A stretch of 61,953 bases of DNA from NCBI GenBank assembly GCA_020723165.1, contig DYJK01000006.1:1-61953 (forward strand), read 5' to 3'. Positions 353 to 542 of this stretch are shown one piece after another. The translations under genes and the position numbers were made by a program. Each line of letters opens with the position of its first letter. Positions within the stretch are counted from its first letter, which is position 1. The stretch comes from Melioribacter roseus. GTDB taxonomy: Bacteria > Bacteroidota > Ignavibacteria > Ignavibacteriales > Melioribacteraceae. Below the pieces are notes generated by a model, which did no database searches, was not told the origin of the DNA, and saw only the letters and a list, made by a program, of their open reading frames with translations.

Positions 353-388
353 AAAAAGGTCTTCCAAAAACTTTGAAAGACCTTTTTC
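353..388 (-). terminator. attenuator terminator hairpin upstream of metZ
   Basis: On the minus strand AAAGGTCTTTC (385-375) pairs over 11 bp, with one G-U, with GGAAGACCTTT (365-355) across a 9-base loop. A run of T follows (357-352), an intrinsic terminator. The same 11-mer GGAAGACCTTT also occurs at 425-415, so the 385-375 strand can pair upstream instead and form an antiterminator. It lies between the leader peptide and the metZ start, so it is read as an attenuator. Confidence 0.85.
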
Positions 389-412
389 ATGTTAAAATTA
401 TTTTCGAATTAT

Positions 413-490
413 TTAAAGGTCTTCCTCACATGCGCGATGCATACACATACAGAAGTAACTACAACAAGTATTTATGCGACCTTTAAACAT
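413..490 (-). CDS. Cys/Met-rich leader peptide of the metZ attenuator
   Basis: A 25-codon frame starts MFKGRINTCC, continues SYFCMCMHRAC and ends EEDL-stop. It has five Cys codons (466-461, 451-449, 445-443, 430-428) and internal Met codons at 448-446 and 442-440, a strong excess for so short a peptide ahead of a homocysteine/methionine synthesis gene. AAAAGGTC just before the ATG may act as a weak ribosome site. The stop codon lies inside the strand (425-411) that would form the antiterminator. Ribosomes that finish would mask it and let the terminator form; ribosomes stalled at the Cys/Met codons would leave it free. This follows the classical amino-acid attenuation model; function here is inferred. 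Confidence 0.75.
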   Translation of the reverse strand: MFKGRINTCCSYFCMCMHRACEEDL

Positions 491-511
491 GACCTTTTGT
501 CTTTTGGCTAG

Positions 512-542
512 CAAAGTAAAAAAATATATGGGTAAAATGCAA
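512..542 (-). promoter_or_regulatory. Bacteroidetes-type promoter for the metZ leader
   Basis: On the minus strand TTG (542-540), a 20-base spacer and TTACTTTG (519-512) match the Bacteroidetes primary sigma pattern TTG-N19/20-TAnnTTTG with one mismatch. Transcription would start near 505, about 15 bases before the leader-peptide ATG. Confidence 0.5.

Follow-up and report, generated by a model that had tools for sequence, protein, structure and literature searches.

Transcription of metZ in Melioribacter roseus is very probably controlled by a ribosome-mediated attenuator which, judging from sequence and folding models, most likely senses cysteine and probably also governs the sulfur genes behind metZ. 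The region lies in a 61,953-nucleotide stretch of contig DYJK01000006.1 (assembly GCA_020723165.1), referred to here as the window; other genomes and loci carry our own G and L numbers, G000 being the window's genome. The frame, terminator, competing strands and geometry of the attenuator (Table 1), as well as its occurrence in six orthologs, were read from the sequence and from comparison with related genomes. A preliminary description of this DNA had placed a Cys/Met leader-peptide attenuator in front of metZ, and a frame, a terminator and an antiterminator were indeed present in 6/10 close orthologs. All the coordinates that it had given were correct, namely those of the frame, of the two 11-mer copies (425-415 and 365-355), of the strand pairing with them (385-375) and of the AAAGGTC copies.

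Table 1. Features of the metZ leader region, in window coordinates.
Feature	Position	Strand	Basis
Promoter-like site: TTG (542-540), 20 nt, then TTACTTTG (519-512)	512-542	minus	Five of six letters of the Bacteroidetes -7 consensus; weak evidence
Leader peptide frame MFKGRINTCCSYFCMCMHRACEEDL (25 codons; ATG 490-488, stop 415-413), with five Cys and two internal Met codons	413-490	minus	Cys count p = 0.0005; Cys frame in 6/10 orthologs
Strand A, AAAGGTC, able to pair with strand B (putative protector helix)	479-485	minus	A:B duplex -10.1 kcal/mol, p = 0.006; kept in G097
Strand B, GGAAGACCTTT, antiterminator 5' strand, holding the final codons of the leader	415-425	minus	B:C duplex -14.2 kcal/mol
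Strand C, AAAAAGGTCTTTC, common to antiterminator and terminator	375-387	minus	Folding and duplex tests; near-identical arm across six leaders
Strand D, GGAAGACCTTT, terminator 3' strand	355-365	minus	Terminator -19.3 kcal/mol
U run of the intrinsic terminator	352-357	minus	Sequence
Likely metZ ribosome binding site, GGAAGGA	332-338	minus	Sequence; presumed
metZ, O-succinylhomoserine sulfhydrylase-like, first 109 codons (gene cut by the contig end)	2-328	minus	Best NCBIfam match TIGR01325

The leader frame carries Cys at codons 9, 10, 14, 16 and 21, a count assessed against short frames ending near a terminator, and its seven Cys plus Met codons were reached in 0/2000 shuffles. An intrinsic terminator (387-352, minus strand) lies between this frame and metZ, and none of 200 shuffles equalled either its fold or that of the whole metZ leader (z = -3.87). 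The earlier proposal that a single strand, AAAGGTCTTTC at 385-375 of the minus strand, could pair with either 11-mer held in these tests, with 0/1000 shuffles as stable as the B:C antiterminator duplex and 0/200 equal to the terminator, and the leader stop codon lies within the antiterminator strand, as had been noted. AAAGGTC occurs twice on the minus strand, at 497-491 and 485-479, and both copies had been suggested to pair with the first 11-mer; the pairing was supported for the second (500 shuffles), whereas the first is absent in G097. The suggestion of a Bacteroidetes-like promoter stood only in part: TTACTTTG matches five of the six letters of TAnnTTTG, which we take to be the Bacteroidetes -7 consensus, and by eye G097 has the same box and G149 a looser version, but a pattern scan of six metZ leaders found no exact TAnnTTTG. 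Scanning for sigma-70 promoters and simple terminators gave results at chance level, and the simple terminator scan of the window did not list the hairpin at 387-352; no match was found in the phage collection compared. The full-length metZ ortholog in G097 had its best match to the same function, below cut-offs.

In the mechanism that we propose, transcription would start near position 505, and a ribosome would translate the 25 codons of the resulting leader RNA. With charged tRNA-Cys in ample supply, the ribosome would run to the stop codon and cover strand B, so that strand C would pair with strand D and transcription would terminate at the U run. When cysteine is scarce, uncharged tRNA-Cys would stall the ribosome between Cys9 and Cys16 (methionine presumably acting as a lesser signal), and the free strand B would pair with strand C before strand D is made, allowing read-through into metZ. 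If the leader is left untranslated, strand A may pair with strand B in the window and lead to termination, a feature missing in most relatives.

The ribosome-stalling logic put forward in the preliminary description was consistent with a folding model, in which each codon in turn was placed in the A site and the nascent RNA, ending with strand C, was folded without the part that the ribosome would cover (cover assumed to reach 11 nt beyond the codon, model temperature 37 C). Stalling at most Cys codons of the window leader is predicted to keep the antiterminator available: the fraction of strand C in upstream pairing was 0.85-0.86 at Cys9, Cys10, Cys14 and Cys16, 0.19 at Cys21 and 0.07 at the stop. 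A ribosome at the last Cys codon (21) would thus mask strand B rather than free it. For the leaders of the window, G097, G131, G149, G133 and G124, in this order, the modelled share was 0.85, 0.84, 0.78, 0.74, 0.84 and 0.66 with the ribosome at the first Cys and 0.07, 0.17, 0.04, 0.23, 0.38 and 0.33 at the stop, so that the drop towards the stop was seen in 6/6 metZ leaders. The untranslated RNA had a modelled antiterminator share of 0.25 in the window versus 0.66-0.85 in the other five, and a protector helix is therefore likely in the window leader alone among the six. Its A:B pairing was supported in three of the six leaders; in G149 the strands AACGG and CCGTT look compensatory by eye to AAAGG and CCTTT of the window, but the automated test of A:B pairing, which used a shorter strand B, did not support this (p = 0.53).

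Orthologs of metZ were collected from 164 genomes of the order (E 1e-20), and 13 passed, ten being close (66-100% identity over 109 residues, the window's genome included) and three distant (44-45%). Six of the ten close orthologs (G000, G097, G131, G149, G133 and G124) have both a Cys leader and a terminator, and G128 has a terminator without a Cys frame, which brings terminators before metZ to 7/10; upstream of metZ in G067, G115 and G083 neither a Cys leader nor a terminator was found, and in G067 the gene is preceded by sulfite reductase and sirohaem genes. The leader peptides have strongly diverged (for example MLSCGCKILMLRE and MINGILNNCWCMNPF), yet each of the six retains at least two Cys codons. 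The terminator arms and a strand B complementary to strand C are present in all six, with B:C complementarity exceeding that of shuffles in every case (p 0.000-0.007); strand B was misaligned by MAFFT, and duplex tests against shuffles were therefore used in place of a covariation count. In G097, G131, G133, G128, G124 and G149, metZ is apparently followed by a gene of OsmC type and a pair of half-size genes for sulfur transport, according to open reading frame lists with families checked for G097 only. In that genome (L021:8376-9995) the two half-size genes are of the Sulf_transp family, an arrangement that suggests co-control of sulfur uptake.

A combined test, defined as a terminator within 520 nt together with a frame holding two Cys or four Cys plus Met codons, scored in only 3/383 control genes taken from the window, L018-L029 and L060-L139, mostly from other Bacteroidota, and two of these three look like genuine poly-Cys leaders before sulfite reductase genes. 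Poly-Cys leaders with terminators lie between metZ and a sulfite reductase gene at L062:3693-3770 and L077:3750-3854 of other Bacteroidota (7 and 8 Cys, respectively), of which that of L077 passes the ribosome-position model and that of L062 fails; metZ itself has a SAM riboswitch at both loci, and one gene string thus seems to use both sensors. Among named genomes, for which the best 80 metZ loci of a longer list were used, L060 has the same metZ leader as G124; for the remaining 79, a reading of the 420 nt upstream of metZ found no frame of at least two Cys codons beside a terminator. Six of these loci have a one-Cys frame immediately followed by a hairpin, apparently where an upstream gene ends. 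The string TGYATGTGYATG has exactly two copies in the 3.8 Mb genome, one in the metZ leader and one in a metY leader, and is present in 85/164 genomes of the order. It was rejected as a marker across the order because an attenuator was seen in 0/30 fetched loci, one of which has a hairpin 121 nt beyond the frame; judging by their positions, two or more of the other hits (G097 and G135) belong to leaders of metY. In the window's genome, a terminator pattern of the GAAG type gave 13 hits versus 26 for the reversed control, two of the 13 being the metY terminators.

The preliminary description had also proposed comparing metZ and metY upstream regions for Cys/Met frames, which proved positive at both genes; the tandem Met/Cys attenuators at metY and their relation to the SAM riboswitch were absent from it. 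In the window's genome, metY (L030, G000:C190), assigned by TIGR01326 over its cut-off and followed by an aspartokinase gene and a metX-like fragment, is preceded by two successive Met/Cys leaders, MKPFTNNISAKNICRGMMCMIYFFAKG and MNHRMLNSAIMMMCMCMSPNIRGGPD (start codons taken as the longest option), with one terminator each. The B:C antiterminator exceeded shuffles in three of four metY leaders of the genus, the second leader of G097 giving p = 0.44. In the folding model, a stall freed and the stop masked the antiterminator in all four metY leaders tried, and in both leaders of this genome and those of G020 and G061 the Met/Cys run stops at or just before the step.

Across the order, metY was found in 69/164 genomes (E 1e-160), and 66 upstream regions were read, G148, G082 and G008 being left out because the metY match begins inside the gene. 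A SAM riboswitch lies upstream of metY in 49/66, of class SAM-I in 46 and SAM-I-IV in three (L173, L174 and L175, where it takes the place of a SAM-I match). The combined test scored in 36/66 regions, and a shuffle test (60 shuffles, p <= 0.05 uncorrected, 82 terminators) returned 44 Met/Cys leaders, or 42 in 33 genomes after those of G053 and G058, which overlap SAM-I-IV, were dropped. Leader and riboswitch occur together in 17/49 riboswitch genomes by test, and seven more (G072, G071, G019, G022, G064, G004 and G133) have a leader by eye but no filter-passing terminator; about half of the riboswitch metY genes (24/49 including those by eye; L038-L059 and L140-L175) thus have a leader in front, two sensors in series.

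All 16 assessable genomes without a riboswitch at metY have a leader attenuator there (G120, with merely 234 bases upstream, was left out for that reason). Two leaders were present in 9/16 of them by test and in 11/16 by eye, which adds G097 and G104, versus 0/49 with a riboswitch (Fisher p = 5e-9 for the by-eye count with kinship ignored). When the 30 metY proteins most similar to the query were placed in a tree, a branch with support 100/98 set the 12 riboswitch-less ones apart; five further riboswitch-less genomes (G105, G120, G159, G160 and G070) are outside this tree, three of them from other families, so that a single origin is not established. A genome-wide search, run with stricter filters and for the SAM-I class only, found SAM-I in 69/164 genomes, 68 over the cut-off, and none in the 17 genomes lacking a riboswitch at metY, the window's own included. 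Considering these results, we somewhat favor the view that a lineage without SAM-I runs its methionine and sulfur genes by translation, with a Cys leader at metZ and two serial Met/Cys leaders at metY, both of which polymerase must pass, and that sister genera have a SAM riboswitch as the second element behind a like first leader, so that leader and riboswitch would have been swapped at one gene within the order.

Outside the order, 391 genomes of the class were drawn, 71 of them with metY, and 40 upstream regions were fetched from 37. By eye, 7/40 have a Met/Cys leader with a terminator (G218, G241, G281, G319, G356, G423 and G360), as exemplified by MQNQQFNIACKAMCNNMMQMCMMMCCACNRENVGASL, and metY leaders may therefore be older; we claim no direction for the riboswitch exchange. 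Rfam searches of 20 of the 40 regions gave eight hits, none of them in the five leader regions included. In G360 (L248), from another family of the class, metY has two serial leaders with the runs MCMCMC and CMMMCCRM. In G345 (L256), a frame far upstream of metY (-497 to -374 relative to the match) carries CCCRCCCC, with 8 Cys in 40 codons, and no filter-passing terminator was found directly behind it.

The choice of signal at metZ was weighed against a reading in which the same attenuator senses methionine, or slow translation in general, with Met15 and Met17 as the regulatory codons. The Met codons are interleaved with Cys, stalls at Met15 and Met17 likewise free the window antiterminator in the model, and Met is abundant in the two leaders before metY in this genome; against this stands the ratio of Cys to internal Met codons, 18:8 by hand count in the six metZ leaders versus 78:214 in the 42 metY leaders (odds ratio 6.2, p = 2e-5, with kinship ignored and the longest metY starts adding some Met). 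We consider this reading unlikely; from codon content, cysteine is the likelier signal for metZ and methionine for metY. The idea that metZ and reverse transsulfuration are the sole source of cysteine was rejected, since a cysE-like gene is present, below its cut-off, and cysteine need not come via metZ. Such a route is possible, as a cystathionine beta-synthase gene, over its cut-off, adjoins a gene best matching cystathionine gamma-synthase, with gamma-lyase second.

It is improbable that the Cys-rich nascent peptide binds a ligand (metal, sulfide or redox state) in the manner of arrest peptides: Cys clusters could bind metals, and the G097 operon has OsmC-like and sulfur transport genes, but the six peptides have no evident common spacing or motif except their Cys codons, which fits codon sensing better. 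Still less probable is a plain intergenic terminator beside a chance Cys-rich frame, with no regulation. Short frames are frequent, and three of the six leaders, with two Cys codons only, are singly non-significant (p 0.10, 0.11 and 0.14); however, the B strands exceed shuffles in all six, few control genes score, and the gene at 674 is oriented away from metZ and so does not read into the terminator. A riboswitch or T-box in place of a translated leader has the least to recommend it and is very improbable, although a SAM riboswitch precedes metZ in 3/20 loci tested, all from other Bacteroidota, and is common at metY in the order. At gathering scores the window had no match to Rfam families, T-box and RF00162 included, and the nine metZ orthologs tested (L006-L014) had no riboswitch match at metZ, their sole hit being a tRNA in L011.

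Literature searches, mostly of papers outside subscription, found nothing recognizable on Cys or Met leader attenuation at metZ and metY or on this lineage. The mechanism is classical, and Cys versions of it exist in other groups. The searches turned up no example of this gene context, of a Met/Cys tandem or of alternation with the SAM riboswitch; these features, together with the sensor and the lineage, set the system apart from known attenuators. In the accessible part of one source, which added a case from Firmicutes, leader peptides were until then (2010) known only from Proteobacteria and Actinobacteria, and the exchange of a riboswitch or T-box with leader peptides was noted, so far mostly between distant groups (PMC2965389). 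Here both sensor kinds are found at a single gene within one order, stacked or alternating by genus, and the question of what favors either sensor can thus be addressed; the results also point to control of sulfur assimilation by Cys codons in a group that has received little study. Parts of other reports mention hints of attenuation by leader peptides in amino acid operons of a flavobacterium (PMC9723704) and describe tandem attenuators at mgtCBR (PMC3641672).

The SAM-I riboswitch (RF00162) serves the same pathway and, in this order, even the same gene, metY, but senses SAM via an aptamer and not via translation, and was not found in the window's genome. The his/trp-type attenuators are alike in having a leader peptide with regulatory codons and an antiterminator overlapping an intrinsic terminator, the position of the ribosome deciding between them; unlike these, the present leaders use Cys (and Met) codons at the sulfur genes metZ and metY in a Bacteroidota-related lineage. 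Mycobacterial poly-Cys leaders are reportedly Cys-responsive, leaderless frames, going by the title of the work of Canestrari in 2020. Those of the mycobacterial cys operons resemble the metZ leader in being Cys-rich short frames before sulfur genes, but their Cys runs are described without conserved terminators in the accessible portion of another report (PMC1262725), whereas the metZ leader has an intrinsic terminator and a clear antiterminator. As far as the available part of its description goes, uORFC-8-2 of the Rhodobacterales, predicted to be a Cys-codon attenuator with an intrinsic terminator before cysS, is alike in both respects and has two tandem Cys, usually at codons 14-15, while the metZ leader differs in gene, lineage, structure and Cys positions (PMC8632094).
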